42,973 bases of DNA from Thermodesulfovibrio sp. (GTDB lineage: Bacteria; Nitrospirota; Thermodesulfovibrionia; UBA6902), in NCBI GenBank assembly GCA_026982355.1, contig JALSHG010000105.1, positions 1-42,973 on the forward strand, read 5' to 3'. Shown piece by piece: positions 9,435 through 36,349 of this stretch. The notes beneath the pieces are model-generated. The model saw only the letters and a program-made list of their open reading frames with translations, searched no databases and was not told the origin of the DNA. How positions within the stretch are numbered: the stretch's first letter is position 1; each line of letters starts with the position of its first letter. Both the position numbers and the translations under genes were made by a program.

Positions 9435-9440
9435 TGCGGT

Positions 9441-10067: not shown

Positions 10068-10096
10068 AACGGGCGCGGGCAAATAACAAATAACAG

Positions 10097-10651: not shown

Positions 10652-10655
10652 CATA

Positions 10656-18249: not shown

Positions 18250-20154
18250 TTGCAAATTGATTCGTGTTTCTGCATTAAAGGCTTTCATTTCTCGGTCTCC
18301 CTGGTATCAGAGGACAGCACGGTCCTGGAAAAAACGGCCTTCCCCTTTTCAGTAGTCACCGACACAGACCCCCTGGCCGGACTCCTTGAGGCCGGGATTG
18401 TAACCGGCGCGGGCAGCGAGGTGGAGAAGCTCTTCCTGCTCGTCCAGAGAGACAGGTACCTCCTGACGGAAGATGAACTGCGGCCCGTCACCAACAGGGA
18501 TATCGAAGAATCGTGGCGGAATGCCTTTTCTTTTTATAATGCCGAAGACCGCGGCCTTATACTGCTGCCCGGACAGACAGACGGAGAAGGAAGGCTTATG
18601 CCGTTTCCTCCGCAGTTTTTCTGCAAGGCGCGGAGGATATTCTTTCATCCGCCCTGTCCGAAGTGCGGGCTTCCACTGCAACAGTGTGAAGACGACGGCC
18701 TCCTCGATGCTTCGGGCCTCCAGCCTTATTCGGGATCCTTAAGGCGTTACCTTTACTGCGCGCAGTGCACCCCGGCAGGCAGATCCGGGTTCTATGCGTA
18801 TGATGAGGAGCCGGCGACGGCGGTCAGGGACCGCAGGGCACTGATCAGGAAATTCAGGCTCCTGGCCGAAGGCGGTAACCATGCGGAACAATTTCCGTGC
18901 CCGGAATGTCCGGAGCACAGGGAATGCTACGGCACGGACCAGCGCGCTGTTTCAAGGATCGCGCCCTTCTCTTTTTATCCGTTCTACATGTTTGCCTTTA
19001 AGGCCATGTCACTGAACGCCCCGGATTTCCTGTCCCTCGTCTCCGGCGCGGAATTCGGCGATGTCGAATCCGTGCTGGGGAAAAAACAGGAGGCCGGGAG
19101 GATCAAGCGCCTGAAAGACATCAGGCAGAGGGGGAACCTGACAAAGGCCCCGTTTCTGTTCGGTTCGGACGACCGGTTTTTTCTGGAGGTGCTGTACCTG
19201 AAGCTCTGTTTCCTGGGAGAAGCGCTCCGGTTCCTTTGCCGCGGCGATGACCTCCTGATGCATCCGGGGCTGAGGCCGTCTGTCGAGCGGATATGGGTCA
19301 GCCTCCCCCCGCACGGCGGCCTGCTTCCGTTTCTGTGGAACTTCAGGGTGAATCTCGTCGGCATATTCACCCCGCCGGCCGGCGGCGGATCATTCCATGA
19401 ACCCGCGGGCACGGAGAGCCTGTTTTATACAGGGCTCCTCTGGTTCAACACCCTGCTGGCCAACAGCCGGCAGGATGTCTCAAGGGTCAATGCATCCCTG
19501 AGGGGTATTGTGGATCACTGCCGGAAAGGCGGTGATTTTTCATTTCAGGATGAGATGAAAGACCCCGACCCGGTGTTTTCCCCTGTCAATGTTTTCTGGA
19601 ATCCGGAGGGAAAGACGGTCGGCGAAGAATTCATTACCCTGTGGCACAAGGCCCTTGACCTGTCATTGTCCCTGCTGAGGGCCGGTTCCGCGTCCGTGCC
19701 GTCATTCTCCATGGAGAATTTCAGACAGCGGTCTGAAGGCCTGATGAAAGAGATCAGTGGCCTCATGTTTACTGAAGCGCCGGCGGGAACGGCGGCCCCC
19801 GCGCCGGAAGACGCGGCGATCCACGGGATTCTCAGGAGTATCTACAATAAATGGAGCTCCGGTGCGGTAACTGAGGAGAAGGAATCAACCGAAACGGTCA
19901 TACTCTCTTCACAGGTGCGGAAAGAAGAAACCACGCCTGCAGCACCCCCGAAACAGGAAGACAGCGGGGTTATCGAAGAAACCGTTATCATATCACGACA
20001 GGATGCAGGGCGCCCCTCGGCGCCTGAAGAGCCTGCCGGAGAAGAAAAAAAGGGCGACAGGCCGGAGGACAGCGGGGACTCCCTGGAAGAGACGGTTATC
20101 ATCAGGCCCGCCGAACGCTGCGGCGACGAGGGTAAAAAGGATGGAACAAAATAG
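18250..20154 (+). CDS. T6SS-locus protein with Cys clusters and phosphothreonine-like tail
   Basis: A 634-residue protein I do not recognise. Residues 136-173 hold paired cysteines (CPKC at 136-139, C146, CAQC at 170-173), which look like a zinc ribbon, with another cluster at C217/C220/C226. The middle is globular, and no transmembrane helix is obvious. The last 90 residues are an acidic, Pro/Glu-rich linker carrying three copies of a short motif: ETVIL at T549, EETVII at T578 and EETVII at T615. Each has Thr followed at +3 by Ile or Leu, the pattern that FHA domains bind when phosphorylated. The start is TTG with AAGG at 18236-18239. It overlaps the next gene by 14 nt and opens the T6SS locus, so a regulatory or scaffold role is inferred. 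Confidence 0.6.
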   Translation: MQIDSCFCIKGFHFSVSLVSEDSTVLEKTAFPFSVVTDTDPLAGLLEAGIVTGAGSEVEKLFLLVQRDRYLLTEDELRPVTNRDIEESWRNAFSFYNAEDRGLILLPGQTDGEGRLMPFPPQFFCKARRIFFHPPCPKCGLPLQQCEDDGLLDASGLQPYSGSLRRYLYCAQCTPAGRSGFYAYDEEPATAVRDRRALIRKFRLLAEGGNHAEQFPCPECPEHRECYGTDQRAVSRIAPFSFYPFYMFAFKAMSLNAPDFLSLVSGAEFGDVESVLGKKQEAGRIKRLKDIRQRGNLTKAPFLFGSDDRFFLEVLYLKLCFLGEALRFLCRGDDLLMHPGLRPSVERIWVSLPPHGGLLPFLWNFRVNLVGIFTPPAGGGSFHEPAGTESLFYTGLLWFNTLLANSRQDVSRVNASLRGIVDHCRKGGDFSFQDEMKDPDPVFSPVNVFWNPEGKTVGEEFITLWHKALDLSLSLLRAGSASVPSFSMENFRQRSEGLMKEISGLMFTEAPAGTAAPAPEDAAIHGILRSIYNKWSSGAVTEEKESTETVILSSQVRKEETTPAAPPKQEDSGVIEETVIISRQDAGRPSAPEEPAGEEKKGDRPEDSGDSLEETVIIRPAERCGDEGKKDGTK

Positions 20155-20893
20155 CGGTACTGATACGGGCGCCCTTGCCGATGAGATCAGGGCGATCTAC
20201 AGGTCGGACAGCTCACGGGCCGGGCAATTGATCGAGAGACTTCTTGAGCAGAGACTGAAAGGCCTGTCCCCGGTGGAGAGACTGGCAGCGGTGGACAGGC
20301 TTGCCGGCAGGTTCGGGGCAACAAGAGGCGCCGGGACGCTCAGCCTTGAGCAGGAAGAGGTCTCGAGGATGCTTTCCCTCCTCCTGGGGAGAGATATCCC
20401 GGTGGAGAACCTTCCGGCGGGGGAACTGCCGGAGAAACTATCCGTTGCCCTGAACACGGTCTTCGATACGCTTAACAGGATCATAGGGGTTATTAATTCA
20501 ACCCTCCTCGGCGAAAAGGTGGAGCTTGCGACGATCAGGCATATAATAGGCTCGGGCCTTGAGCGTGAAGGCACGCCCGAGCACCTGCAGGCATACCTTG
20601 ACCGGATACGGGATGCCTTCATGGTTGCGCACCGCGCCTTTCAGGAGGCGGCAAGGATCACCGTGGGCCGGATTCTGGATGAACTGGACCCCGACGGCAT
20701 ATCCGCCGCTGCCGGAGGCGGAGGTCTCAAGTTCGGCCCGCTCCGCAAGGCCGGCAGCTTTGAGGTGTACCGGGAAAAGTTCCAGGCATGCAGAGGCTGG
20801 TTCGAATCAGAGCGGTTCACGGAGGATATACTGAGGGAATTTGAAAAAATCTGCCGGAAATTATATAAAAGTAATGCGAGAGGTGTCCTATGA
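20141..20893 (+). CDS. Probable T6SS FHA-protein C-terminal-domain homologue (FHA absent)
   Basis: A 250-residue soluble protein. The C-terminal half, from about residue 145, resembles the C-terminal domain of T6SS FHA proteins (TIGR03354, Fha/TagH/ImpI): an AHRAFQEAARITVGRILDELDP helix pair split across about 157-180, then LKFGPLRKAGSFEVYREKF and LREFEKICRKLY. The N-terminal half is helical and shows none of the FHA landmarks (GR, SXXH, NG). So it may be an FHA-less relative, next to a protein whose tail looks like an FHA ligand. ATG 20141 is chosen because the frame further upstream lies within the preceding gene. It overlaps tssJ by 4 nt. The homology is by eye only. Confidence 0.5.
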   Translation: MEQNSGTDTGALADEIRAIYRSDSSRAGQLIERLLEQRLKGLSPVERLAAVDRLAGRFGATRGAGTLSLEQEEVSRMLSLLLGRDIPVENLPAGELPEKLSVALNTVFDTLNRIIGVINSTLLGEKVELATIRHIIGSGLEREGTPEHLQAYLDRIRDAFMVAHRAFQEAARITVGRILDELDPDGISAAAGGGGLKFGPLRKAGSFEVYREKFQACRGWFESERFTEDILREFEKICRKLYKSNARGVL

Positions 20894-21384
20894 GAACAAA
20901 TATCAGGATGTTGTTTGCGGCCGGTCTTGCGTTTTTCTTCATTGCATGCGCTACGACCGTTCAGGCCCCGTACAAACAGGATGCAATCACCCTGCATTTG
21001 AAAAGCTCGAATGAGCTGAACCTCTACAACGGCAAGGCGCACACGCTCCTGCTGTGCGTTTATCAACTGAAGGATCCCAATGCCTTCAACCAACTGCTTG
21101 ACGAAAGGGACGGGCTGTCCAGGCTGCTTGAGTGCAGGCGCTTTGACCCGTCCGTCACCGGCTCCAGGCGGCTGATAATAAATCCGGGCCGGGAGATAAC
21201 CAGGAGCCTCGACAGGGCCGAGGGAACAAAATACGTGGGTGTTGCGGCAGGCTATTACGAGATGGAGCCTGAGAGCATGGTCCGCCTTTACCGGATCCCC
21301 GTGAACATGTTTACGAAGACACTCAGGGAACTGAAGATCGGGCTCTTCCTGGGGCCGCATGAGATACAGGGGTTGGAAGAATAA
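20890..21384 (+). CDS. tssJ: T6SS outer-membrane lipoprotein TssJ
   Basis: A 164-residue lipoprotein. The signal peptide ends in the lipobox FIAC, and the mature part is a beta-sandwich typical of TssJ/VasD, with LHLKSSNELNLYNGKAHTL as the first strands and LLLCVYQLKDPNAFNQL. TssJ anchors the TssL-TssM complex to the outer membrane by binding the periplasmic end of TssM. It overlaps the preceding gene (ATGA) and the tssK start (one base), so it is translationally coupled on both sides. Confidence 0.85.
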   Translation: MRTNIRMLFAAGLAFFFIACATTVQAPYKQDAITLHLKSSNELNLYNGKAHTLLLCVYQLKDPNAFNQLLDERDGLSRLLECRRFDPSVTGSRRLIINPGREITRSLDRAEGTKYVGVAAGYYEMEPESMVRLYRIPVNMFTKTLRELKIGLFLGPHEIQGLEE

Positions 21385-22772
21385 TGGATATACAGAAACC
21401 GCTTTTCTGGCACCAGGGTCTTTTCCTGCAGCCGCAGCACTTTCAACTGCTCGACCTGTCCTTCAGATCACTGCTGGCGCCGTTTCATGATTTCATGCAG
21501 CCCGAGTTCTGGGGCACGGGGGGGATCGAGATCGAAAAGGCCGCCCTCGGCACCGGCACATTCAGCCTCCTTAACGGCGGCTTCCTTTTCCGGGACGGTA
21601 CGTATGCGGTCCTGCACGGCAATGCCGTTGCCGGCTCCCGCACGTTTGATGCGGCGCTTATAGAAGGGGGCAAACCCCTGGGCGTGTTCGTGGGACTCAG
21701 GAAATGGAATACGGCGGGGGAGAATGTCACTGTCCTTGAAAAAACGGATACGCTCTCTGATGTGACCACGCGTTTTGTCACCGCCGCGGAGCCCGAGGAA
21801 GTCAGGGACCTGCATTCGGACGGGCCGTCCGGCCGGGTCAAACGGCTCAGTTACGTACTGAAAATATTCTGGGAGACCGAGACGGAACTGCTGGGCGATT
21901 ACGACCTCATCCCGGTTGCCCGGCTGGAAAGGGAGGGTGAGGATGTGGTCCTTTCACCCGGCTTTGTACCGCCGTGTCTCACTGTCGCGGGCTCGGACGT
22001 CCTCCTTAAACTCGTCAGGGAGATAAGGGACCAGACAGCCGCGCGCAGCCGGCAGCTTGAAGAGTACAAGAGACAGCGGGGGATACAGAGCGCCGAGTTC
22101 GGCTCGAGGGACATGGTCTACCTCCTGGCCCTCAGGTCCCTTAACCGGTACGTGCCCCTGCTCTTTCATTACACGGAAACAGGGCGGGTACATCCGTGGA
22201 CCGTCTACGGAACCGTGAGACAGCTTATCGGCGAGCTTTCATCTTTTTCAGAAAACGTGAATGTCATGGGGGAATCCGGCGACGGAGGCCCCGCACTGCC
22301 TAATTATGACCACGGCAGGCTGTGGGAATGCTTTTCAGCGGCCGGCAGAACACTCACCCGCCTGATGGACGAGATCACGGCAGGGCCGGAATATATAATA
22401 AAACTGGTTTATGACGGCACTTATTATGCCGCGGACCTGAAACCCGCCGTGTTTGAGGGACGCAACCGCTTCTTCCTCGTATGCAGGACGGCGGAAGACC
22501 ACAGGGCGGCGCTTAAGTCGCTGACATCACTGGCCAAGTTGAGCTCGCGCGAGCATCTGCCGATTTTGATAGCCCGGGCGCTTCCGGGCATCGTGCTGGA
22601 GAACCTCCCGGTCCCTCCGCAGGAACTGCCGCGCAGGGCCGACTGCCTGTATTTTGCGGTGGACCGGCACAGCGAACAGTGGGGTTTCGTGGAAAAAGGC
22701 AACAATATAGCCCTTTACTGGGACAATGCCCCTGAGGACCTCGAGGTCGAGCTCATGGTTGTGGGAAAATAA
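21384..22772 (+). CDS. tssK: T6SS baseplate protein TssK
   Basis: A 462-residue TssK/ImpJ protein. The N-terminus PLFWHQGLFLQPQHFQ is the family signature, followed by the shoulder domain and a C-terminal domain ending LYFAVDRHSEQWGFVEKGNN. TssK trimers connect the baseplate (TssEFG) to the membrane complex through TssL and TssM. The gene order J-K-L-M is the common one. Length is normal. Confidence 0.93.
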   Translation: MDIQKPLFWHQGLFLQPQHFQLLDLSFRSLLAPFHDFMQPEFWGTGGIEIEKAALGTGTFSLLNGGFLFRDGTYAVLHGNAVAGSRTFDAALIEGGKPLGVFVGLRKWNTAGENVTVLEKTDTLSDVTTRFVTAAEPEEVRDLHSDGPSGRVKRLSYVLKIFWETETELLGDYDLIPVARLEREGEDVVLSPGFVPPCLTVAGSDVLLKLVREIRDQTAARSRQLEEYKRQRGIQSAEFGSRDMVYLLALRSLNRYVPLLFHYTETGRVHPWTVYGTVRQLIGELSSFSENVNVMGESGDGGPALPNYDHGRLWECFSAAGRTLTRLMDEITAGPEYIIKLVYDGTYYAADLKPAVFEGRNRFFLVCRTAEDHRAALKSLTSLAKLSSREHLPILIARALPGIVLENLPVPPQELPRRADCLYFAVDRHSEQWGFVEKGNNIALYWDNAPEDLEVELMVVGK

Positions 22773-22796: not shown

Positions 22797-23477
22797 ATGC
22801 ATCTGACCGATTGTTTCATGGAGCTCATAGCGTACGTGTCTTACTTCCGGAAAACGCTGAATAAAAGGCAGCCGGCCTTCGAACAGGTCAGGGCCGATAT
22901 CATGCGCCTGATGACACAGAGCGAAGACTGCCTGAAAAAGGGCCTTTTCACCCGCGACGACTATGACACCGCGCGGTTCGCGGTCTGCGCATGGGTGGAT
23001 GAGGCGATCCTGGGCTCTTCGTGGCAGCACAAGGAACAGTGGCAGAGGGAGCTGCTGCAGCGCATCTTTTATAACACGGCTGCCGCCGGCGAGGAGTTTT
23101 TCGAGCGGCTGAACGCACTCGGCCCCCATCAGAGGGATGTAAGGGAGGTTTACTACCTCTGCCTGGCGCTGGGTTTCATGGGGCGCTATTGCCGCAAGGA
23201 AGACGAATACCTGCTCGAACAGTTGAAGACTTCCAATCTCAAGCTGCTTGCGGGAAGTTCCCTGGGTGTTCCCTCCCTTGAAATGATGGAACTCTTCCCC
23301 GAGGCCCGTCCCTCAGGGCAGGTGGAGACGGCCGTGCAGAAGCCGAAATTCCGTTTCTCGCTCTTTACGGCCGTAACCCTTGCAGCGCCGGTCCTGCTTT
23401 TCGGGCTGCTGTTCCTGATTTACACATTCTCCCTCAGGGGGATAGGTGAAAGTTTCTTGAGCTCATTACCGAAATGA
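22797..23477 (+). CDS. tssL: T6SS inner-membrane protein TssL (DotU family)
   Basis: A 226-residue protein with a cytoplasmic helical DotU domain (start HLTDCFMELIAYVSYFRK; conserved FAVCAWVDEAIL; YLCLALGFMGRY) and one C-terminal transmembrane helix at about 190-213. The periplasmic tail is very short: no OmpA/peptidoglycan-binding domain is attached, and no TagL-like gene is seen, so how the complex is anchored to the cell wall is not evident here. Its stop overlaps the tssM start by 4 nt. Confidence 0.92.
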   Translation: MHLTDCFMELIAYVSYFRKTLNKRQPAFEQVRADIMRLMTQSEDCLKKGLFTRDDYDTARFAVCAWVDEAILGSSWQHKEQWQRELLQRIFYNTAAAGEEFFERLNALGPHQRDVREVYYLCLALGFMGRYCRKEDEYLLEQLKTSNLKLLAGSSLGVPSLEMMELFPEARPSGQVETAVQKPKFRFSLFTAVTLAAPVLLFGLLFLIYTFSLRGIGESFLSSLPK

Positions 23478-26400
23478 AAGACAAGTTATTAAAGTTTCTC
23501 AAGATATTCCTGTTTGCCGCACTGGGCGTCCTGGCCGTACTGCTTGTATTCGGGGTGGTGCTCAGCCTGGACTGGCCGTGGTGGGCGGGATTCTTCCTGC
23601 TGCTCGCCGTTGCGGGGGCGGGGATCGGGGCGGTGTTTCTCCGCAAGCTGTGGCTCAGGCGCAGGGAGCAGCGTTTTGTCCGGCAGGTCATAGAGCAGGA
23701 CGAGGCCCGCTTAAGCGCGCTCAGTGGCAGGGAAAGAGAAGAGATGAAGGAACTCCAGGCGCGGTGGAAGGAGGCCGTCGACGCCCTGAGGCGCTCGCAC
23801 CTGAGAAAGTACGGAAACCCCCTGTACGTGCTGCCGTGGTACCTCGTAATGGGAGAAAGCGGCTCGGGCAAGACCACCGCCATACAAAGCGCCCGCCTTT
23901 CCTCGCCGTTTGCCGGGGTTGCGCGGACGCCGGGCATTTCAGGGACGAAAAACTGCGACTGGTGGTTCTTTGAACAGGCGGTCGTCATCGACACAGCGGG
24001 AAGATACGCGGTTCCGGTGGATGAGGGGAGGGACAGGGACGAGTGGCAGAAATTTCTGAACCTGCTCGTTAAATACAGGAAAAAAGAGCCCCTCCACGGC
24101 CTTATCGTGACACTGGCCGCCGACAGGCTGCTGGAGAGCCCGGGCGAGGCCCTCGAGGAGGACGGGCGTAACATCCGGCGCAGGATAGATGAGCTCATGC
24201 GCGCCATGGGGGTCAAATTCCCGGTTTACGTGCTTGTCACCAAGTGCGACCTCATACAGGGAATGACCCGGTTCTGCGAACGCCTGCCCGAGGAGACCAC
24301 CGGCCAGCCCATGGGCGTTATAAACCAGGAACTGTCCACCGACATCACGGGCTTTCTTGATTCAGCGCTGAATTCCATAGGAGAACGCTTGAGGAACCTC
24401 CGCATCCTGCTCCTGCACAAATCCGGACCGGGCGAGGTTGACCCGGGGCTCCTTCTGTTTCCCGAGGAATTCGGGAACCTCAGGCAGGGTATCGAGTCCT
24501 TCATGAAGGGGGCGTTCCAGGAGAACCCCTACCAGGAGACGCCGGTCCTGCGCGGCCTGTTTTTCAGCAGCGGACGGCAGGAAGGCACCCCTTATTCCCA
24601 TTTCCTGAACACACTGGGCCTAATCAGTGAGAAGGAGGTGCTGCCCGGCACGAGCAGGGGACTTTTCCTTCATGATTTTTTCTCCAGAATCCTGCCGGGC
24701 GACAGGGGGCTGTTCACGCCCACGAGCAGGGCCGTCCAGTGGCAGAGGTTCACGAGAAACCTCGGCCTTGTCTCGTGGGTTCTCACAGGCGTGGCCCTCT
24801 GCGGCCTGTTGAGCTTCTCGTTTGTCAAGAACCTCCGGACATTAAGGGATGCCTCGCACGAGTTTGCGAAACAACCTGTTCTGCAGGGCAGGTTCATGCC
24901 CGACCTTGTGACAATGAACCTCTTCAACAATGCAATCCTGAAAGTGGAGGAGCGGAACCGCGACTGGTGGATACCACGGTTCGGCCTGTATGAAAGCGTC
25001 AATGCCGAGAAGGGACTGAAGGAGAATTTCAGCAGGCGGTTCAGGGAGGGTGTCATGGCGCCCCTGGACAGACAGATGGTGCAGAGGCTGACGGATTTCA
25101 CGCCGGCCGTCCCCGACGAGGTCGTGGGCGGCTACGTCGCACTCCTGGCAAGGCGCATCAATCTCCTGAAGGCCCGCCTCGGAGGCGAAGACGAAGAATC
25201 CATCCAGGCAAAACCGGTTCCGCCTTATGAAGCCCTGATTTCCGCGGTTGAGCCTGATGCCGGCCCCGATACGGTTAAGAAATTCGGCCGGTTGTATCTC
25301 CAATACATAATCCGGCGCACCGACACCGGGGAAATAAGCAAAGAGATAGATATCTTCCAGTCATGGCTGAAACACCTCCTGGAACTTAAGGGCCGGAACC
25401 CCCGCTGGATCGCCTCATGGGTGAACGGGAGCGGCTCTGTGCCGCCCATGACCCTGGGGGATTTCTGGGGCGGTGATTCCCCTCCTGAAGGACTGGAGAC
25501 GGCAGTTGCTCCGGCGTTTACGCTCAGGGGCCGGAAAATGATAGATTCTTTTATCAGCGAGATCGAGGACGCCCTTCCCGACCCGCTGATCTTTGCGGAC
25601 CGGAAACTGGAGTTCAAAAAATGGTACCGCGACAGCAGCTTCACGGCATGGCAGGAGTTCAGCTCCTCTTTCTCAAAGGGCCGGAAGAGGCTCGGCGGCA
25701 GGGAGCAGTGGAGAAACACCGCCGCCGCGATGGCTGGCGAGAAAGGGCCGTATTTTGCCTTTCTGCAGAGGATGACCGGGGAACTCGGGCCCCTTGCGGA
25801 AAACGGCGATGCGCCCCCGTGGCTGCTGCAGGCTTACGAGTTCAGGAAGGTGGGTAAGATAGGCTCTGCGGTGGGGGGCACCATTGCAAAGGCCGCGGAA
25901 AAGGGCAAGAAGGTCATCAGCGTCATAGAGAAAAAGCTCGGCAGGGGGGAACGGGAGGCCTCCGGCGGGGAATCCCTCTCAATAAAGGCGTACACCGAAT
26001 ACCGGAAGGCCATCAGGGACATAACGGCCGTAACCGCATCCGCCAACCAGGCGTACGAAACGGCGCTCCGTGTCTTCTCGGAAGACCCCGCCGTCGGCGA
26101 GTCGCCTTTTTATGCGGGCTACAGGGCCGCATCCGCATTAAAGACCGGCCTGGCAGAGGGGGGGAAATTGTCCCCTATCGTCTCGGACCTTGTAACAGGC
26201 CCGCTTGATTTTCTCTGGGAATACACACTCAGGGAAACAGCGTGCCGGTTGCAGGAGCGGTGGGAGTCCGACGTCCTCGCTGAAATACAGGGGGCCTCAC
26301 GCCGGCAGGCCATAGAACTGCTCCTTGGACAAAACGGTTTTGCATGGAAATTCGTCAAAGAGCCGGCGGCGCCGTTTGTAAGGTACAGGCAGGGCAGGGG

Positions 26401-26947
26401 ATACCAGGCAAGGGAGGTGTTCGGCAGGGCCGTGCCTTTCAGGACGGCCTTTTTCGCCTTCCTGAGAAAAGGGGCCGGCGCGCACGCGGATGCGCTGGCG
26501 AAACAGAACTACAATGTGCTGATCAAGGGCCTGCCCACGGACGCCAACGAGGATTCACGGCTGAAACCCCATGCCACACACGTGGAGCTGCAGTGCACGG
26601 ACGGGACGTACAGGCTGGACAACTACCAGTTTCCGGTGAGCAGGACATTCAGATGGTCCCCGCGCACATGCGGCGATGTGGTATTCAGCATCGAAGTGGG
26701 AGACATCACCCTTGCAAAGACTTACAGGGGCCCGCAGGCGTTTGTTGATTTTTTAGACGAGTTCAAAGGAGGACGCCGCACGTTTTACCCTAAAGAGTTT
26801 CCCGCAAAGAGGAGAGCCCTGACGGACCTGGGTATCAGGTACATCAGGGTCAACTATAAATTCCGGGGGGCCGGCGCCGTACTGAAGAAATTCAGGTTTT
26901 CCCCCGGTGAAATCGTAAGGAGCATTTCGCATTGCTGGGACCGGTAA
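23474..26947 (+). CDS. tssM: T6SS inner-membrane protein TssM (IcmF family)
   Basis: A 1157-residue IcmF-type protein. Two transmembrane helices lie at about 9-30 and 36-57, and a third at about 430-452. The cytoplasmic NTPase domain between them has an intact Walker A (GESGSGKT, 127-134), a Walker B-like VVIDTAGRY and a VTKCD guanine-specificity-like motif. The large periplasmic part binds TssJ. Intact Walker A is notable because many TssM proteins have lost it. It begins within the end of tssL, and tagF begins within its last codons. Confidence 0.93.
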   Translation: MKDKLLKFLKIFLFAALGVLAVLLVFGVVLSLDWPWWAGFFLLLAVAGAGIGAVFLRKLWLRRREQRFVRQVIEQDEARLSALSGREREEMKELQARWKEAVDALRRSHLRKYGNPLYVLPWYLVMGESGSGKTTAIQSARLSSPFAGVARTPGISGTKNCDWWFFEQAVVIDTAGRYAVPVDEGRDRDEWQKFLNLLVKYRKKEPLHGLIVTLAADRLLESPGEALEEDGRNIRRRIDELMRAMGVKFPVYVLVTKCDLIQGMTRFCERLPEETTGQPMGVINQELSTDITGFLDSALNSIGERLRNLRILLLHKSGPGEVDPGLLLFPEEFGNLRQGIESFMKGAFQENPYQETPVLRGLFFSSGRQEGTPYSHFLNTLGLISEKEVLPGTSRGLFLHDFFSRILPGDRGLFTPTSRAVQWQRFTRNLGLVSWVLTGVALCGLLSFSFVKNLRTLRDASHEFAKQPVLQGRFMPDLVTMNLFNNAILKVEERNRDWWIPRFGLYESVNAEKGLKENFSRRFREGVMAPLDRQMVQRLTDFTPAVPDEVVGGYVALLARRINLLKARLGGEDEESIQAKPVPPYEALISAVEPDAGPDTVKKFGRLYLQYIIRRTDTGEISKEIDIFQSWLKHLLELKGRNPRWIASWVNGSGSVPPMTLGDFWGGDSPPEGLETAVAPAFTLRGRKMIDSFISEIEDALPDPLIFADRKLEFKKWYRDSSFTAWQEFSSSFSKGRKRLGGREQWRNTAAAMAGEKGPYFAFLQRMTGELGPLAENGDAPPWLLQAYEFRKVGKIGSAVGGTIAKAAEKGKKVISVIEKKLGRGEREASGGESLSIKAYTEYRKAIRDITAVTASANQAYETALRVFSEDPAVGESPFYAGYRAASALKTGLAEGGKLSPIVSDLVTGPLDFLWEYTLRETACRLQERWESDVLAEIQGASRRQAIELLLGQNGFAWKFVKEPAAPFVRYRQGRGYQAREVFGRAVPFRTAFFAFLRKGAGAHADALAKQNYNVLIKGLPTDANEDSRLKPHATHVELQCTDGTYRLDNYQFPVSRTFRWSPRTCGDVVFSIEVGDITLAKTYRGPQAFVDFLDEFKGGRRTFYPKEFPAKRRALTDLGIRYIRVNYKFRGAGAVLKKFRFSPGEIVRSISHCWDR

Positions 26948-27750
26948 AATCCGGCGTGCAGTGGAACTGGGCGGCTTACGGCAAGCACCCCTCGGCAAAG
27001 GACTATTTCCGGATAGGCCCGGAATCGCCCCTGTCAAAGAGCTTCTCGGACTGGGTGGACCGGGGCTACAGGGATGTGGTTTCAAGGAACTACAGCGGCA
27101 GGGCGCCGGTTGCATGGCGCTTCTGGGCCAGGGGCGCGGGCAGGGAATCACTCGCATGCGGACTGCTGAAGGACAGCAGCGACAGCCTCGGCCGGCCGTA
27201 TCCCTTTCTTGTAATCGGCAGCGGCTGCCTGAAGGACTGGGAGTCTCAGTGGGACCTCCTCCCGATTGCATGCGAAAAGCCGTGGGGCGGCATGGAATAT
27301 CTTTCAAGCCGGGCGTTTGAGGACTTGAGGACACTGGAGACCGCTGTCAGGAATCTCAGGCCGCCGTTTCCGGACTGGACCGGATTCAGCAGGAAAATGG
27401 AAATCCTCATGAGAAAAAGCAACTGCTCCTCGGAAACCGGCGGCTGTCAATGGGACGCAGGGGACCCGGCGGGGGGAGAGGCGGGCATTATCCGCCTGGA
27501 CAGGGAAACATTCCATGACCGGTGCGCGCTGATCAGGATGTGGCACAGGTTGCTCAGGCGAAGGGACAACACTGCGCCGAATGCAATCTTTATGGGGGGG
27601 ACGTTTGAAAGGTCGTACATGGCCTTTTTTAAACGCCCCTTGTTGACGGGTGACTTTGTGAGGCTGTGGTCAATATCCACCGGTTCCGGGAAATGCATTG
27701 CCGGAAATGCCTTAAACCGGAGATGCGGAAAATTTGACCTGCCAATTTAA
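26932..27750 (+). CDS. tagF: T6SS-associated protein TagF
   Basis: A 272-residue TagF-family (DUF2094) protein. The N-terminal signature is WAAYGKHPSAKDYFRIG, followed by LSKSFSDWVDRGY, RFWARG and SDSLGRPYPFLV. In Pseudomonas TagF blocks assembly of the T6SS by sequestering Fha, so it is a post-translational inhibitor. It starts with TTG inside the end of tssM, supported by AAGGAG at 26917-26922. Its presence alongside an FHA-C-like protein and a tail with FHA-ligand motifs supports a phosphothreonine-type control circuit. No fused PppA phosphatase domain is seen. Confidence 0.8.
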   Translation: MLGPVKSGVQWNWAAYGKHPSAKDYFRIGPESPLSKSFSDWVDRGYRDVVSRNYSGRAPVAWRFWARGAGRESLACGLLKDSSDSLGRPYPFLVIGSGCLKDWESQWDLLPIACEKPWGGMEYLSSRAFEDLRTLETAVRNLRPPFPDWTGFSRKMEILMRKSNCSSETGGCQWDAGDPAGGEAGIIRLDRETFHDRCALIRMWHRLLRRRDNTAPNAIFMGGTFERSYMAFFKRPLLTGDFVRLWSISTGSGKCIAGNALNRRCGKFDLPI

Positions 27751-27819: not shown

Positions 27820-28644
27820 ATGGACTCTATTGAACTCGTCAGAGCAGGCAGGCTTTCCGACGCCCGCACGCAGTTGATCAGCGAGGTCAGGACCTCGCCC
27901 GGGGATGCAGGCAGGCGGACGCTCCTGTTCCAGGTCCGTTCCCTGTGCGGCGAATGGGACAAGGCGGAGCGCGACCTCGACATAATAGCTGCGATGGATG
28001 CGGGCAGGGAGGCGGGCGCCCTGGCATACAGAAACCTTGTCCATGCCGAAAAGGAAAGGATGGAGGTCTTCAGGAACGGCCGCCGGCCTTCTTTCCTCCC
28101 GGAGACCCCGCCCTATATTGAAACCTATTATGCCGCCCTGCGGAAGCTCGGGGAAAAAAACATCGAAGAGGCAAAACCGCTCTTTGACCGGGTGGATGCC
28201 GCGGTTCCTGCTGTAAGCGGAACCATCAACGGCCAAAAACGCTTCACGGGAATCAAGGACACGGACAGCCGCCTTGCCCGGTTTCTCGAGGCATTTGTGC
28301 ATGAGCGCTATATATGGATACCGTTTGAATCATTAAGAGAGATTTCCATCACACCGCCGAAGACCCTTTTCGATCTTATATGGGCCTCTGCATTCCTGAC
28401 CCTGCAGGGAGGGCTTACCCTGAACTGTTTTCTCCCGGTGCTGTACGCGGAATCCTTCATGCATGAGGACGAGCGCATAAAGCTCGGAAGGATGACCGAC
28501 TGGACACCGCTGGGGGGACCGTTCTCAAAGGGAGCGGGCCAGCACGTGTTCCGGATCGGCGAAGAGGAGGTCGCACTCCTGGAAATCCGGGAGATCTCGT
28601 TCAATCCCACCGCATCAGAGGCAGACAATGAAAAGAGAGATTGA
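27820..28644 (+). CDS. tagJ: T6SS accessory protein TagJ (ImpE family)
   Basis: A 274-residue ImpE-family protein. The N-terminus ELVRAGRLSDARTQLISEVR and the helical repeat LFQVRSLCGEWDKAERDLDIIAAMD are diagnostic, with a C-terminal beta domain containing IPFESLREISITPPKTLFDLIWASA. In Pseudomonas TagJ binds TssB and ClpV and so influences sheath recycling. It starts 69 nt after tagF without an obvious Shine-Dalgarno and overlaps tssA by 17 nt. Only some T6SS lineages carry it, so it helps place this locus phylogenetically. Confidence 0.85.
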   Translation: MDSIELVRAGRLSDARTQLISEVRTSPGDAGRRTLLFQVRSLCGEWDKAERDLDIIAAMDAGREAGALAYRNLVHAEKERMEVFRNGRRPSFLPETPPYIETYYAALRKLGEKNIEEAKPLFDRVDAAVPAVSGTINGQKRFTGIKDTDSRLARFLEAFVHERYIWIPFESLREISITPPKTLFDLIWASAFLTLQGGLTLNCFLPVLYAESFMHEDERIKLGRMTDWTPLGGPFSKGAGQHVFRIGEEEVALLEIREISFNPTASEADNEKRD

Positions 28645-29971
28645 CATAGAGGCCATACTGGCTCCCATCCCCGGTGAAAACCCCGCCGGCGTGGACCTCC
28701 GTTACACACCTGTTTATGACGAGATTAAAGAGGCGAGGAGGGAAGACGACCTGCATGATCCCCTGCTTTCCGAAGGCGACATCAAGAGGGCTGACTGGGA
28801 AAAGGTGATCAGTGTCTCTGTTGATGCGCTTTCCGGCAGGACCAAGGACATACAGATAGCGGCCTGGCTTACCGAGGCCCTGATAAAGACCGAAGGGTTT
28901 GGGGGTCTTGCCGCGGGGCTCGGGATAATCCATTCCCTGCTGAGAGACTACTGGGACAATCTCTATCCGCAGATAGAGGATGGAGACCTCGATTTCAGGG
29001 CCGGGCCGATTGAGTTCATGAACGACAAGCTCTCATTCAGTATACGGCAGGCGCCTCTTACGGATACCCGCTCCACCCCGGGATATTCATGGTATAAATG
29101 GCAGGAGGCCCACCAGGTGGGTTATGAGTCCGACACGCGCAACCAGTACGGCGACGTGGATGAAAACAAAAAGCAGCAGCGCGATGAGCTGATAGCAGAG
29201 GGCAAGCTGCCGCTTGAGGATTTCGATGCCGCCGTTGAGCGGTCGTCAAAGGAGTATTACAGGTCGCTGGCGGAGACGCTTGATCTCTGCCTTGAGGAAT
29301 TCACCACTCTCGACGGCATAATAGATGAGAGATTCGGCCCCAATGCGCCGAGGACGGCGGAACTGAGGGACGCCATTGAAAGCTGCAGGCAGCTTGCACT
29401 GAAACTGCTTGAAAAGAAAAAGGAAAAAGAGCCCGACCCCGAGCCGCTGCCGCAGGTGGAGGAGGAGACAGCGGCGGCCGGGGAAGAAGAGGACACAAAA
29501 GGTTCAGGGGAGGGGGAAATGCAGGCACATGCCGGGCCCGCCGCCTCGGGGCCTCTGCCGGCGGCGCGGTTTTCCGATGCTGCGTCCGTTGAAAAGGCCA
29601 TGTGGGAGGATGCAGTGAAAAAGCTGAACTCCGGGGGCATAAAACAGGCGCTTGAGCAGCTTTACAGGGCATCGTGCAGCATGCCTTCCGTAAGGGAGCA
29701 GAACCGTTACCGCCTGCTTATGGCCAAGCTCTGCCTCAGGGCCGAGAGGCCTGACCTGGCAAGGCCGATCGTGGAGCAGTTGTATGCATTGATAGAAGAG
29801 CTGCAACTCGGACGCTGGGAATCACCCATGTGGATTGCCGAGGTGTTTGAGACCCTGTATCAATGCCTGACGTCGGGGACTCCCTCGGATGATGATATGG
29901 GGAGGGCGCAGGAGCTTTTCAGAAGGATATGCACCATGGATGTAACAAAGGCCATGATGTACAGGACATGA
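28628..29971 (+). CDS. tssA: T6SS cap/priming protein TssA
   Basis: A 447-residue protein with the ImpA N-terminal domain (about 1-130: ILAPIPGENPAGVDLRYTP and the segment DWEKV...TKDIQIAAWLTEAL). A middle helical region is followed by a Pro/Glu/Lys-rich low-complexity linker at about 265-310 and a C-terminal VasJ-like helical domain (about 325-447: SGGIKQALEQLYRASCSMPS, LLMAKLCLRAERPDLARPI). TssA primes and/or caps sheath polymerisation. It overlaps tagJ. The transcription unit is interrupted after it by repeat B3. Confidence 0.88.
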   Translation: MKREIDIEAILAPIPGENPAGVDLRYTPVYDEIKEARREDDLHDPLLSEGDIKRADWEKVISVSVDALSGRTKDIQIAAWLTEALIKTEGFGGLAAGLGIIHSLLRDYWDNLYPQIEDGDLDFRAGPIEFMNDKLSFSIRQAPLTDTRSTPGYSWYKWQEAHQVGYESDTRNQYGDVDENKKQQRDELIAEGKLPLEDFDAAVERSSKEYYRSLAETLDLCLEEFTTLDGIIDERFGPNAPRTAELRDAIESCRQLALKLLEKKKEKEPDPEPLPQVEEETAAAGEEEDTKGSGEGEMQAHAGPAASGPLPAARFSDAASVEKAMWEDAVKKLNSGGIKQALEQLYRASCSMPSVREQNRYRLLMAKLCLRAERPDLARPIVEQLYALIEELQLGRWESPMWIAEVFETLYQCLTSGTPSDDDMGRAQELFRRICTMDVTKAMMYRT

Positions 29972-30053
29972 TCGACCTGTTAATACTCCTTACCGCCGGG
30001 AGGATGTTATCAGGGGGATGGGGCGCTGAATTTTCACATAATTCAGATAAAAT

Positions 30054-30186
30054 GAGGCTGTTGCAAAAGTCCTCTGTCTGTTACCTCCGGCCGAGAGGGA
30101 GGTTTTGCAAGGCGTCGATGCCAAAAGATTTCTCCCTGCGGTCGAAATGACATATGCAGGCATTTTCAGACTTTTGCAAGAGGCTC
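30054..30186 (+). repeat. Family B repeat copy B3 inside the T6SS locus (133 bp)
   Basis: It begins GAGGCTGTTGCAAAAGTCC and ends GACTTTTGCAAGAGGCTC. The interior matches B1 and B2 (GAGAGGGAGG; AAAAGATTTCTCCCTGCGG; TCGAAATGACATATGCAGGC). It fills most of the 249-bp gap between tssA and tssB and ends 20 nt before the tssB ribosome-binding site. Confidence 0.88.
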
Positions 30187-30220
30187 AAATTCAAATTCCA
30201 TTAACCAAGGAGGAGATAAA

Positions 30221-30742
30221 ATGGCCGAAAGTCTGCAACATAAACTCGACAGGGTGAGGTCTCCAAGGGTCCACATAACCTATGACGTGGAGATAGGCGA
30301 TGCAATCGAGATGAAGGAGATACCCTTTGTCGTGGGTGTGCTCGGCGATTATTCGGGCAACCCGGACGAGCCGCTTCCGAAGCTCAAGGACAGGAAGTTC
30401 GTCGAGATAGACCGTGACAATTTCGACAAGGTGCTGGCAGGCATGAAACCGAGGCTTGCCTTCAAGGTGGACAACAAGATCGCGGATGACGACTCCAGGA
30501 TAGCCGTGGAACTGCGTTTCAGGTCAATGGATGATTTCCATCCCGAGCGGGTGGCCGAGCAGATAACACCGGTGCGCAAACTCGTGGAGGCAAGGAAGAA
30601 ACTCTCCGAACTGCTCAGCAGGCTGGACGGCAACGACAGGCTTGACGAACTGCTGCAGGAAGTCGTGACAAACACCGACGCCCTGCGGAAACTCGGCGAC
30701 GAGGCCGGGGTTAAAAAAGAAGAAGAGAAGAAAGAAGATTAA
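30221..30742 (+). CDS. tssB: T6SS contractile sheath small subunit TssB (VipA)
   Basis: A 173-residue VipA/ImpB protein. It starts AESLQHKLDRVRSPRVHITYDVE and contains PFVVGVLGDYSG and FVEIDRDNFDKVL, as expected for the sheath strand-exchange core. The C-terminal helix (about 135-165) is Leu/Asp-rich and the tail is Glu/Lys-rich. With TssC it forms the sheath whose contraction drives the Hcp tube. A strong AAGGAGGAG at 30207-30215 precedes it, right after repeat B3, so its translation starts afresh rather than by coupling. Confidence 0.94.
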   Translation: MAESLQHKLDRVRSPRVHITYDVEIGDAIEMKEIPFVVGVLGDYSGNPDEPLPKLKDRKFVEIDRDNFDKVLAGMKPRLAFKVDNKIADDDSRIAVELRFRSMDDFHPERVAEQITPVRKLVEARKKLSELLSRLDGNDRLDELLQEVVTNTDALRKLGDEAGVKKEEEKKED

Positions 30743-30745
30743 AAC

Positions 30746-30756
30746 AAAGGAGGTGA
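30746..30756 (+). promoter_or_regulatory. Near-perfect Shine-Dalgarno of tssC
   Basis: AAAGGAGGTGA pairs over almost the whole anti-Shine-Dalgarno and sits 7 nt before ATG 30761. It is the strongest site in the window, fitting the high demand for sheath protein. Confidence 0.7.
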
Positions 30757-30760
30757 CCAC

Positions 30761-32257
30761 ATGGCTGATAAGGAAGAACAGACAGCAGCGGAATCTGCCC
30801 GTGCAGAAGAAGTCAAAGAAGAAAAGAGTCTCTTAGACAGGATCATTGAAGACGGCCGCATGGCCCGCGAGGAGAGCCAGAGAGAATGGGCGAAGGATGT
30901 TATCGGCGAGTTTGTCAGTCAGGTCATGGAGGGCGTCATCACCGTCTCCAAAGACACCGAGGCGATGATAAACGCCAGGATCAGCCAGATCGACCAGTTG
31001 ATATCCAGGCAGCTCAACGAGGTCCTGCACCATCCCGATTTCCAGAAGCTTGAGGCCTCATGGAGGGGGCTGCACTATCTCGTGCAGCAGAGCGAGACGG
31101 GTGAGACCCTGAAACTCAGGGTGATGAATGTCTCCAAGAAGGACCTGCTGAAGGACATGGAGAAGGCCAGCGAGTTCGACCAGTCCACGCTTTTCAAGAA
31201 GATATACGAGGAAGAGTTCGGCATGTTCGGCGGTTCGGCCTACGGCGCTCTGATCGGTGATTATGAGTTCAGCAACCATCCACAGGACCTGTCGCTGCTG
31301 GAGAAGATATCGCAGGTGGCTGCCGCCGCACATGCGCCGTTTATCTCCGCGGCATCCCCCGGGCTCTTCAACTTGGACAGTTTTACAGAGCTCGGCACCC
31401 CGCGCGACATGGCCAAGATATTCCAGAGCGTGGAGTATGCCAAGTGGAAGTCCTTCCGGGAGTCCGAGGACTCAAGGTATGTGGCGCTCGCCCTGCCCCA
31501 TATCCTCATGCGTCTTCCCTACGGGAAGGATAACGTGCCGGTTGAGGCGTTTGATTTCGAGGAAGACGTGGAAGGCACCGAACACGATAAGTACCTGTGG
31601 GGCAATGCGGCATATGCCCTCGGCGCGCGGCTGACGGATGCATTCGCCAAGTACCACTGGTGCGCGGCGATCAGGGGCGTTGAGGGCGGAGGCCTGGTGG
31701 AGGGCCTGCCGGTCCACACCTTTAAAACAGACGAGGGAGACGTGGCGCTGAAGTGCCCCACCGAGATAGCAATCACCGACAGGAGGGAGAAAGAGCTTGC
31801 AGACCTCGGCTTCATACCCCTGGTGCACTGCAAGGGCACGGACTATGCGGCCTTTTTCAGCACGCAGACGGTCAACAAGCCCAAGGTCTACGACACCCCT
31901 TCCGCAACCGCAAATGCAAGGCTGTCCTCGCAGTTGCAGTACATACTCGCGGTCTCAAGATTCGCCCACTACCTGAAGTCCATAATGAGGGATAAGGTGG
32001 GAAGCTTCATGACCCGGAAAAACGCCGAGGATTTCCTCAACAGGTGGATCAGCAATTATGTGCTCCTGGACGACAACGCCGGACAGGAGATGAAGGCAAA
32101 ATACCCGCTGAGGGAGGCAAGGGTGGATGTCAGCGAGATACCCGGCAAACCCGGCGCTTACCGTGCGGTTGCGTTTCTCAAGCCCCATTACCAACTGGAC
32201 GAGCTGACCATCTCGTTGAGGCTGGTCTCCGAGCTTCCGCCGCCGGCCAAAGGCTGA
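30761..32257 (+). CDS. tssC: T6SS contractile sheath large subunit TssC (VipB)
   Basis: A 498-residue VipB/ImpC protein. Its N-terminal helix (LLDRIIEDGRMAREESQREW) is the region recognised by ClpV during sheath disassembly. The core includes HHPDFQKLEASWRGLHYLV, FGMFGGSAYGALIGDYEF, APFISAASPGLF and the C-terminal ISNYVLLDD. Length is typical. It lies 18 nt after tssB, forming the usual B-C pair in roughly equal stoichiometry. A GC-rich palindrome follows in the gap before hcp. Confidence 0.95.
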   Translation: MADKEEQTAAESARAEEVKEEKSLLDRIIEDGRMAREESQREWAKDVIGEFVSQVMEGVITVSKDTEAMINARISQIDQLISRQLNEVLHHPDFQKLEASWRGLHYLVQQSETGETLKLRVMNVSKKDLLKDMEKASEFDQSTLFKKIYEEEFGMFGGSAYGALIGDYEFSNHPQDLSLLEKISQVAAAAHAPFISAASPGLFNLDSFTELGTPRDMAKIFQSVEYAKWKSFRESEDSRYVALALPHILMRLPYGKDNVPVEAFDFEEDVEGTEHDKYLWGNAAYALGARLTDAFAKYHWCAAIRGVEGGGLVEGLPVHTFKTDEGDVALKCPTEIAITDRREKELADLGFIPLVHCKGTDYAAFFSTQTVNKPKVYDTPSATANARLSSQLQYILAVSRFAHYLKSIMRDKVGSFMTRKNAEDFLNRWISNYVLLDDNAGQEMKAKYPLREARVDVSEIPGKPGAYRAVAFLKPHYQLDELTISLRLVSELPPPAKG

Positions 32258-32278
32258 TGTATTAAAAAAACGTGGTAG

Positions 32279-32299
32279 CGGCAAGGCGCGCCTTGCCCC
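32279..32299. repeat. GC-rich palindrome between tssC and hcp
   Basis: GGCAAGGCGCGCCTTGCC is an 18-bp perfect palindrome within the 169-bp gap. As RNA it would form a 7-bp stem with a CGCG loop. There is no T-tract, so it is not a classic terminator; it might act as an attenuator or mRNA-stabilising hairpin. The rest of the gap is AT-rich towards hcp. Confidence 0.5.
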
Positions 32300-32426
32300 T
32301 GCGGATTACAAAAAACGCGGCAGGTGGATGGGGATTTTCACCAAAAAAGCCGGCAACGGGTTATTGATTCCATAAAGGGCCCGCAAACAATTAACCAATT
32401 AATTAAAAAAGGAGGTAAAACAATCT

Positions 32427-32915
32427 ATGCCAGCAGATAACTTTTTAAAGATCGACGGGATAAAGGGAGAAAGCACGGATGACAAGCACAAGGACTGGAT
32501 AGAGGTCCTTTCCTACAACTGGGGAGTATCGCAGATGGCATCCGGTTCAGCAAGCACATCCGGCGGGGGCACGGTTGCAAGGGCCGATTTTCAGGATTTC
32601 TCCATTGTCAAGACACTGGATTCCTCATCGCCGCTCCTGGCCCTGGCCTGCGCGGAGGGAAGGCATATCAAGGAGGTCAAGTTCGAGATGTGCCGCGCCG
32701 GCGGAGACAAGCTCAAATACATGGAATATACAATGAGCAACTGCATTATCAGCTCGGTGTCCGTGGGCGGAGGCGGAGGCGGCGAAGCCACGGAATCGGT
32801 TTCATTCAACTACGGCAAGATCGAGTGGAACTACATCAAGCAGAAACGGGCGGACGGCAGCGGCGGCGGAAACGTGCCGGCGGGCTGGGACCTGGAGAAA
32901 AATAAAAAGGTATAA
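32427..32915 (+). CDS. hcp: T6SS tube protein Hcp (TssD)
   Basis: A 162-residue Hcp-family protein. It starts ADNFLKIDGIKGESTDDKHK and has WIEVLSYNWGVSQ, the family motif, followed by a Gly/Ser-rich loop, DFSIVKTLDSSSPLL and the C-terminal SFNYGKIEWNYIKQK. Hexamers stack into the tube that is shot out of the cell and can carry effectors in the ring lumen. No effector domain is fused to it. It has its own GGAGG (32411-32415), though with a rather long 11-nt spacing, and a leader of its own after the palindrome, so it may be expressed at a higher level than its neighbours. Confidence 0.94.
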   Translation: MPADNFLKIDGIKGESTDDKHKDWIEVLSYNWGVSQMASGSASTSGGGTVARADFQDFSIVKTLDSSSPLLALACAEGRHIKEVKFEMCRAGGDKLKYMEYTMSNCIISSVSVGGGGGGEATESVSFNYGKIEWNYIKQKRADGSGGGNVPAGWDLEKNKKV

Positions 32916-32928
32916 TCCTTGAGGCTGG

Positions 32929-33405
32929 ATGAAACCGGACCGGCAGGGCATACAGGCATCCGTACTGGACAGGCTTATTGATAACGAGCCGGGCGCAGCA
33001 CACGAGCCTGTCCGGCAGCGCTCGTACACTATCGGCCGGGTCAAGGCCGCGGTCGTCAGGGACCTGGAGAATCTCCTGAACACGAGACGCAGCATACTGC
33101 CTGTCCCCGCTGAATGCAGGGAAGTCGGTAATTCCCTGTTCGTATACGGCCTGCGGGACTTCACCGCCGGGAATCCGCGGAACCCGTCCGTTAAACAGCA
33201 GTTGCGCAGCGATATTGAAAAGACCATATCGCGCTTTGAGCGCAGGCTGAAAAACGTCACTGTCCGCATTGAGGCCGGGGACAGGAACGAGCGGAATATA
33301 AGGTTCAGGATAAGCGGGATGCTCGTCGCGGACCCGGTGACCGAGCCGGTTACCTTTGATACCTACTTTGACATAACCCGGGGGCAGTACTTTATTTCAG
33401 GATAA
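32929..33405 (+). CDS. tssE: T6SS baseplate protein TssE (gp25-like)
   Basis: A 158-residue gp25/lysozyme-like baseplate protein. It has SVLDRLIDNE at the start, VVRDLENLLNTRR (the conserved R/DLE-LLNTR motif) and SVKQQLRSDIEKTISRFERRL, then a C-terminal beta region. TssE initiates sheath polymerisation on the TssFG wedge. It is 13 nt after hcp. Repeat A8 separates it from tssF. Confidence 0.92.
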   Translation: MKPDRQGIQASVLDRLIDNEPGAAHEPVRQRSYTIGRVKAAVVRDLENLLNTRRSILPVPAECREVGNSLFVYGLRDFTAGNPRNPSVKQQLRSDIEKTISRFERRLKNVTVRIEAGDRNERNIRFRISGMLVADPVTEPVTFDTYFDITRGQYFISG

Positions 33406-33422
33406 AACCTCAACTTTAAAGC

Positions 33423-33515
33423 AACCCTTAATGTTGCATAAACGTGCGGAGGAGTCCGGCGGGAAACCGCCGGACTCCTCCGCTCCGCCGCCGGTGTTTT
33501 ATGCAACTGCAAGGT
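33423..33515 (+). repeat. Family A repeat copy A8 (full length, 93 bp, in T6SS locus)
   Basis: The best complete copy: left arm AACCCTTAATGTTGCATAA, right arm TTATGCAACTGCAAGGT. Nested inside is a 17-bp perfect stem (33446-33462 with 33467-33483) around the tetraloop GAAA. It occupies the 127-bp tssE-tssF gap. Confidence 0.9.
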
Positions 33516-33532
33516 AAACAGGCGGGAAATCA

Positions 33533-35341: not shown

Positions 35342-36324
35342 GAGACCGTCTTTTCAGGGAATTCTACAGATTCTCCTTTTTCAGGGCGGTCTGCATACTG
35401 GAGAATCTCTCCGAAGGCGGAAAACCTCTCGGCAGGACACTTGTGCCCGGTGAAGAGGCGGTGCGCTTTTCCTCAAAACCGGGGCTGGCCTTTCCCCCGT
35501 CGGACATTTCAGGAATAGAGCATGGTGACGGCGGCGGGCCTGTCGGCATGGAGGTCGCGTTCATGGGGCTGGTCGGGCCCTCCGGTGTATTGCCCCACTG
35601 TTACAGTGAACAGGTAATCGAGAGGATGATCGAGAAAGACCACGGCCTGAAGGAATTCTACGACATGTTCCATCACCGCCTTGTCTCCCTCTTCTACCTG
35701 GCGTGGAAAAAATACCGGCTTGCCGAAAATTACCTCCCGGGCGCAAATGACAGGATTTCATCCTGCATCCTCAGCCTCACGGGTCTGGGCACGCCCGGCC
35801 TGCTTGAATCAATCGGCCTGCCGGACAAGTCACTGCCGTATTACTGCAGCGGACTCTTATCAAGGGGCGTTCCGTCCGCATGCGCCGTGGAGGCGGCTGT
35901 CGGGTACCTTGCGGGCGTGCCCGTGGAGATCGAGCAGTTCATAGAGCAGTTGCTTCCGTTAAGCCCGGCGGACCTCACACGCATAGGCACGGCCAACGCA
36001 CGGTTGGGCATTGATGCGGTCTGCGGCGGTTATGTGAAAGAATGCCGGTCAAAATTCAGGGTGAACCTCGGTCCCATGGAATACGACAGATATATCCGCT
36101 TCCTGCCCGGCGGGGAGATGCTCCGTTCGGTCTTTGCCCTGGTGAAATACATGACAGGCATTGAGTATGAATTCGAGGTGCGTGTAATCCTCAGGCGCGG
36201 CGAGATCCCGCCCTGCATACCGGGCGAGGGTCACCCGCTGTTAGGCGAGACGACCTGGCTGGGCGGCGGCGGAGCGGTCCCCGAACACGATCCGTATGCA
36301 ACGTTTCAGGAGACGGACCTGTGA
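35305..36324 (+). CDS. tssG: T6SS baseplate protein TssG
   Basis: A 339-residue TssG/ImpH/VasB protein. FYRFSFFRAVCILE near residue 20 and FSSKPGLAFPPSDI are characteristic, followed by VEVAFMGLVGPSGVLPHCYSE-type sequence near 90-105 and HRLVSLFYLAWKKYR. It completes the baseplate wedge with TssF and TssK. Start ATG 35305 overlaps tssF by 37 nt; the family N-terminus begins soon after, so the true start could be slightly downstream. It is 25 nt before clpV. Confidence 0.92.
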   Translation: MGPEERQAHTSLRDRLFREFYRFSFFRAVCILENLSEGGKPLGRTLVPGEEAVRFSSKPGLAFPPSDISGIEHGDGGGPVGMEVAFMGLVGPSGVLPHCYSEQVIERMIEKDHGLKEFYDMFHHRLVSLFYLAWKKYRLAENYLPGANDRISSCILSLTGLGTPGLLESIGLPDKSLPYYCSGLLSRGVPSACAVEAAVGYLAGVPVEIEQFIEQLLPLSPADLTRIGTANARLGIDAVCGGYVKECRSKFRVNLGPMEYDRYIRFLPGGEMLRSVFALVKYMTGIEYEFEVRVILRRGEIPPCIPGEGHPLLGETTWLGGGGAVPEHDPYATFQETDL

Positions 36325-36349
36325 ATAATAAAACCTTAAGGAGACGCAT

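Follow-up and report, generated by a model that had tools for sequence, protein, structure and literature searches.

Threonine motifs in a protein tail encoded beside a stand-alone FHA_C domain at a type VI secretion locus of Thermodesulfovibrio sp.

The T6SS locus and the motif gene

The window (i.e., the whole stretch of 42,973 nucleotides that was analysed) contains a type VI secretion system (T6SS) locus on its forward strand, in which a gene with three threonine motifs in its tail is followed by a gene for a stand-alone T6SS_FHA_C domain, and then by tssJ, tssK and the other T6SS genes, including tagF, which the first-pass annotation had already placed in the locus:

18250..20154, + strand: motif protein ORF, 634 aa, TTG start, with a Cys-rich N-terminal region (residues ~1-510) and a C-terminal tail
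18655..18936, + strand: Cys-rich segment (CPKCGxPLQQC, CxxC, CxxC...C) within the N-terminal region of the motif protein
19816..19860, + strand: predicted helix AIHGILRSIYNKW, start of the tail, conserved in the alignment
19891..19905, + strand: motif 1, ETVIL (Thr549), seen in 6/7 homologous tails
19975..19992, + strand: motif 2, EETVII (Thr578), with an aligned copy in all six full-length homologues
20086..20103, + strand: motif 3, EETVII (Thr615), C-terminal copy, DFLxETIIxKP in relatives
20141..20893, + strand: stand-alone T6SS_FHA_C domain protein, 250 aa, 14-base overlap with the motif gene
20890..21384, + strand: TssJ lipoprotein (PF12790, E 1e-18)
21384..22772, + strand: TssK (PF05936, E 6e-104)
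22797..23477, + strand: TssL, short DotU form (PF09850, E 4e-43)
23474..26947, + strand: TssM (PF14331, E 5e-68)
26932..27750, + strand: TagF, N-terminal domain family TagF_N (PF09867, E 3e-8)
27820..38992, + strand: remaining T6SS locus (ImpE, TssA, TssB, TssC, Hcp, TssE, TssF, TssG and ClpV)

A type IV pilus cluster (PilM, PilO and secretin, window 7852-12416) lies 5' of the locus. Directly 3' of clpV is a SNF2-type helicase (window 39088-42252), whose best NCBIfam match is DISARM DrmD (E 2e-90), although its score of 304 bits falls below the cut-off of 610.

The motif protein displayed no family match in Pfam or NCBIfam and none among PDB sequences, in agreement with its first description as a protein of unknown family, and its N-terminal region appears unclassified at the sequence level. 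Profile comparison gave no sign of kinship between this protein and the fused TagH proteins. Within the N-terminal region, the eight cysteines of the 18655-18936 segment are invariant across six homologues in the alignment and may possibly form a zinc site. The AlphaFold model of this protein is poor throughout (mean pLDDT of 34, with five sequences in the input alignment); in this low-confidence model a helix spans residues 519-536 and the tail has a pLDDT of about 21-26. No secondary structure is predicted for the tail, which is rich in Pro, Glu and Lys and had been described as unstructured around the motifs from the first reading of the sequence. No homologues of the motif protein were found on plasmids.

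The threonine motifs and their conservation

The three motifs were confirmed at Thr549, Thr578 and Thr615, where they had originally been placed, and a DNA pattern for ETVI[I/L/F/M] matches the window at 19891, 19978 and 20089. Outside the window gene, the only in-frame ETVI[ILMF] matches seen with this pattern in the 2.6-Mb genome were single copies in other proteins, namely PFK-like, metallo-hydrolase-like and Trk-like membrane proteins and one doubtful ORF (identities by eye). A chance origin of the motifs was excluded, since three T[VI][IV][IL] copies were found in none of 200,000 tail shuffles and two copies in only three of them. In addition, the codons differ between the three motifs, and the only direct DNA repeat of the tail is a 14-base pair located in the linkers. 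These two observations exclude a simple DNA repeat as the motif source and, with no long repeat in the DNA of the tail, also indicate that the motifs do not result from a recent duplication.

Homologues were searched in 150 related genomes and in a phylum sample. The 150 genomes provided homologues in G001 (same genus, 81%) and in G018, G030 and G033 (same family, 47-52%), while G017 was matched by its tail only; G186, which belongs to another family of the phylum, was added from the phylum sample through its neighbouring FHA_C gene, and a wider contig scan matched only the G001 contig. Together with the genome of the window (G000), these seven genomes carry three to five motif copies each, with variants such as TETVIL, SETVII, TETVVL, AETIIL, LEKTVIL, LDKTVIL and similar. 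Motif 1 has no aligned counterpart in G186, and Thr615 is shared by all six full-length homologues and by the G017 tail. The first-pass annotation had proposed to check the conservation of the threonines; we found the motifs in every homologue, and Thr precedes 27/27 hydrophobic triplets in the seven tails, while the neighbouring hydrophobic positions vary. Note that this count is not circular, since copies were selected by their hydrophobic triplet and not by Thr (one overlapping-frame match of the same motif was left out). At +3, 26 of the 27 copies have I, L or M and the last one has P. As for substitutions, pN/pS in the same-genus pair was 0.10 for the motifs, against 0.50 for the linkers and 0.27 for the N-terminal region, with a weaker contrast in the G018/G030 pair (0.27, 0.43 and 0.27, respectively). 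Within the tail, conservation is highest in the motifs, where constraint at the protein level is stronger than in the linkers.

The G017 case separates the tail from the rest of the protein. Indeed, this genome has a 124-aa gene that holds the tail alone, begins shortly upstream of the conserved IYDKW helix, and precedes the FHA_C gene, tssJ and tssK, i.e., it occupies the locus position of the motif gene. The N-terminal region is thus dispensable in at least one lineage, with the reservation that the G017 genome is 78% complete.

The motifs fit the pattern of an FHA ligand, as had been noted at first sight, by their invariant Thr, their +3 residue and their position in a disordered tail. FHA domains need phosphothreonine (pThr) and often favour Ile, Leu or Val at +3, i.e., pTxx[I/L/V] (PMC8786283). 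As an example, the FHA domain of Bdellovibrio DgcB was solved with NLEKpTSIVASDT, for which Val at +3 sits in the pocket (PMC6733907), and G186 has a closely similar motif, LEKTVIL.

A separate FHA_C gene and the FHA, kinase and phosphatase cluster

The gene at 20141-20893, which is the most informative fact at this locus and was absent from the first-pass annotation, was initially left without classification by family searches. All six members of its protein alignment matched PF20232 (T6SS_FHA_C), with a best E-value of 4.1e-5, while the window copy alone gave 0.056 and the member scores, where shown, lie under the curated cut-off. Moreover, hhalign against 12 full-length TagH-like proteins of the phylum gave an E-value of 2.8e-6 and a probability of 88% over 229 columns, and the aligned region is the part located after the FHA domain of the fused proteins. 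The AlphaFold model of the FHA_C protein is weak (pLDDT of 59), and a fold search of this model against the PDB returned no match at E ≤ 0.001. An FHA domain is absent from the 250-aa chain and from the upstream motif gene.

In usual Fha/TagH proteins, a single chain starts with an FHA domain and ends with a T6SS_FHA_C domain. Thirteen further FHA_C proteins of the phylum are such full-length FHA-FHA_C fusions, and the fused TagH-like gene lies directly 5' of tssJ-tssK, in the position held here by the FHA_C gene. The window protein is thus like TagH/Fha by its homologous domain and its position, and unlike them by the missing FHA domain and by its divergence: the seven FHA_C-only proteins form one clade against 12 fused forms in the tree, with a long branch between both groups. 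The motif gene is found upstream in 7/7 split loci and in 0/13 fused loci. From the sequences, either the Fha of this lineage would have lost its FHA domain or the two halves would never have been joined.

No FHA_C match was found on plasmids. The closest plasmid TssK matches belong to Burkholderia T6SS-5-type loci (40-44% identity). The G186 T6SS locus (L083:8072-12852) resembles such loci in its DUF2169-pentapeptide, pentapeptide, DUF3540 and PAAR-like genes, of which the first, third and fourth have counterparts in Burkholderia savannae; in the window, none of them lies before the motif gene. In B. savannae no gene stands between DUF4150 and tssJ, whereas the motif gene and the FHA_C gene occupy that place here. 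Neither a motif gene nor an FHA_C gene was seen beside tssK in Caballeronia NK8, for which ORF calling is unreliable.

The genome of the window encodes a single FHA protein, outside the T6SS locus, of 322 aa and with two FHA domains. Its gene is divergent from a PP2C gene, and the cluster continues with a trypsin-like protein (L017:13864-14994), a 395-aa Ser/Thr kinase that also contains a PEGA domain, a thioredoxin-like TPR protein and a CsgG-like lipoprotein. A gene of similar size to that of the trypsin-like protein occupies the same place in four relatives. The kinase is PpkA-like, keeps its HRD, DFG and VALK motifs and looks intact from sequence. In the two-FHA protein, the first domain (FHA1) keeps R34, S50, H53 and N71 in 5/5 copies, while FHA2 is degenerate (Ser lost, and Arg lost in some copies). 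A second kinase-like protein of the genome is a 1856-aa open frame running from a contig end (L025:3-5573).

In the 37 genomes of the family, this two-FHA protein was found in 5/6 T6SS-positive genomes (as scored by TssF), namely G000, G001, G002, G018 and G030, and in 0/31 T6SS-negative ones (hypergeometric 1.4e-5 with kinship ignored, a value that overstates the association since these genomes are related). In genus g6, the protein occurs in both T6SS-positive genomes and is missing from G007, G023 and G027. G002 combines the FHA cluster with part of a T6SS, and no motif gene was found there, its T6SS contig being 7 kb long.

It had also been proposed that the motifs should co-occur with an FHA protein and a PpkA-like kinase. 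This is what we observed in the genome of the window, which contains the T6SS locus with TagF, the PpkA-like kinase, PP2C and the FHA protein, and it does not extend to all motif-bearing genomes, since an FHA domain was found in 5/7 of them. G186, which is 99% complete and carries the motif and FHA_C genes, displayed no FHA domain at E ≤ 0.01. Its kinase contig is broken: the kinase, TPR and lipoprotein genes follow the same order as in relatives, and the contig stops 12 bases past the truncated kinase ORF, inside the kinase N-terminus, where relatives carry the trypsin-like, PP2C and FHA genes. In G017, which is 78% complete, neither an FHA domain (E ≤ 0.01) nor a kinase was found.

A probable rearranged threonine-phosphorylation pathway and its alternatives

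Our findings are best explained by a rearranged form of the known T6SS threonine-phosphorylation pathway, in which Fha is split and a multi-site pThr tail serves as docking platform, a reading to which we give a probability of about 0.6. That Fha is divided between an FHA_C protein and a separate FHA protein, with a motif-tail gene beside FHA_C, is a stronger finding than the pThr idea itself, which is the best-supported reading of the motifs. The first-pass annotation had suggested an undescribed phosphothreonine switch; the arrangement is indeed new, but because the downstream gene encodes the C-terminal domain of Fha without FHA, the system would be a known pathway that was rearranged and not a wholly undescribed switch. 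No description of a split Fha or of these motifs was found in the literature searched (open-licence PMC papers).

The Fha of P. aeruginosa and S. marcescens is a substrate of PpkA and is dephosphorylated by PppA, while TagF opposes T6SS activity (PMC10482370); TagF was also shown to bind Fha (PMC5995506). Like this PpkA-PppA-Fha1-TagF system (Pseudomonas aeruginosa H1 and Serratia marcescens), the present one has TagF and FHA_C at the locus and a kinase, a PP2C and an FHA protein in the genome. Unlike it, FHA and FHA_C are carried by separate proteins in separate clusters, and the candidate substrate is a multi-motif tail, from a family absent from Pfam, instead of Thr362 of Fha1. The target of PpkA in A. 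tumefaciens is Thr14 of TssL, and the TssL peptide DLPpTVVEI is a ligand of Fha (PMC3953482). The motif protein would likewise be a non-Fha T6SS protein with candidate pThr in a DLPTVVEI-like context, except that Agrobacterium has a single TssL site and a fused Fha as reader, whereas three to five repeated sites are located here on a separate protein and FHA_C stands without FHA. The motifs further resemble those of GarA/OdhI and DgcB (LEKpTSIV), which are also short, lie in disordered tails and have a branched hydrophobic residue three positions after the Thr, but the latter are single motifs bound in cis, and several motifs with a candidate reader in trans are found here.

Phosphorylation, FHA binding, the order of events and the direction of control are what we infer, and the process might run as follows. 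With the FHA_C half of the split Fha kept before tssJ-tssK (20141-20893), the FHA function would be supplied in trans by the two-FHA protein encoded beside PP2C and the Ser/Thr kinase. The kinase would phosphorylate the threonines of the [E/K]T[V/I]I[I/L] motifs in the tail of the motif protein, on which FHA1 of the two-FHA protein, with its pThr-binding residues intact, would then dock. Through this docking, the FHA protein would meet FHA_C and the T6SS envelope or baseplate complex, and assembly would thereby be licensed, while PP2C would remove the phosphate mark and TagF would oppose the licensing step. Several motifs could allow the binding of several FHA molecules or a graded response. 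A more specific version, which we put forward tentatively and hold to be somewhat improbable as a whole, is that the tail would be a multivalent pThr scaffold whose three to five docking motifs bind several FHA copies in trans and replace the covalent FHA-FHA_C link, so that a graded multi-site code, and not a single site, gates assembly.

The alternative that survives best, though we regard it as unlikely, is that the motifs are indeed both kinase substrates and pThr sites but are read by another protein, either the FHA-GAF-HisKA protein or a non-FHA protein. FHA-GAF-HisKA occurs in G001, G002, G018, G030 and G033, adjoins the cluster in four relatives, and is the only FHA protein of G033, which lacks the two-FHA protein; the absence of a detected FHA domain in G186 and G017 also counts for another reader. 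Against this, the genome of the window lacks FHA-GAF-HisKA and has only the two-FHA protein, so that neither FHA protein is universal.

Slightly less favoured is a phosphorylation-independent role, in which the motifs would dock by edge-strand addition onto the FHA_C protein or a T6SS subunit. The T[VI][IV][IL] pattern is a strong beta-strand pattern, and the strictest partner of the motif gene is the overlapping FHA_C gene (7/7), stricter than any FHA protein, both of which argue for such docking. However, the motif Thr is replaced by Ser, Val or Ala in none of the 27 copies, and because Thr is so strict, FHA recognition fits better than edge-strand pairing.

It is quite improbable that the motif protein acts as an accessory of the T6SS, structural or zinc-binding, with the tail motifs as a simple flexible tether and the genome's phosphorylation pathway serving another process: the invariant cysteines and the location of the window genome's FHA/kinase cluster on another contig than the T6SS locus, among redox, TPR and CsgG-like proteins, speak for it, but the G017 tail-only gene, the restriction of the two-FHA protein to T6SS-positive family genomes, the protein of the G030 cluster contig that resembles one at the G018 T6SS locus, and the PAAR-like and DUF2169 proteins near the FHA gene of G033 all speak against it.

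Returning to the rearranged phosphorylation pathway, the way in which Fha links threonine phosphorylation with T6SS assembly is unsettled, partly since the reader and the assembly domain are usually found in one chain. This lineage appears to separate the substrate tail, the reader and the FHA_C protein, which would make each step testable alone. It would also mean that the pThr site of the pathway can move from Fha, as in Pseudomonas, or TssL, as in Agrobacterium, to a dedicated multi-site tail.
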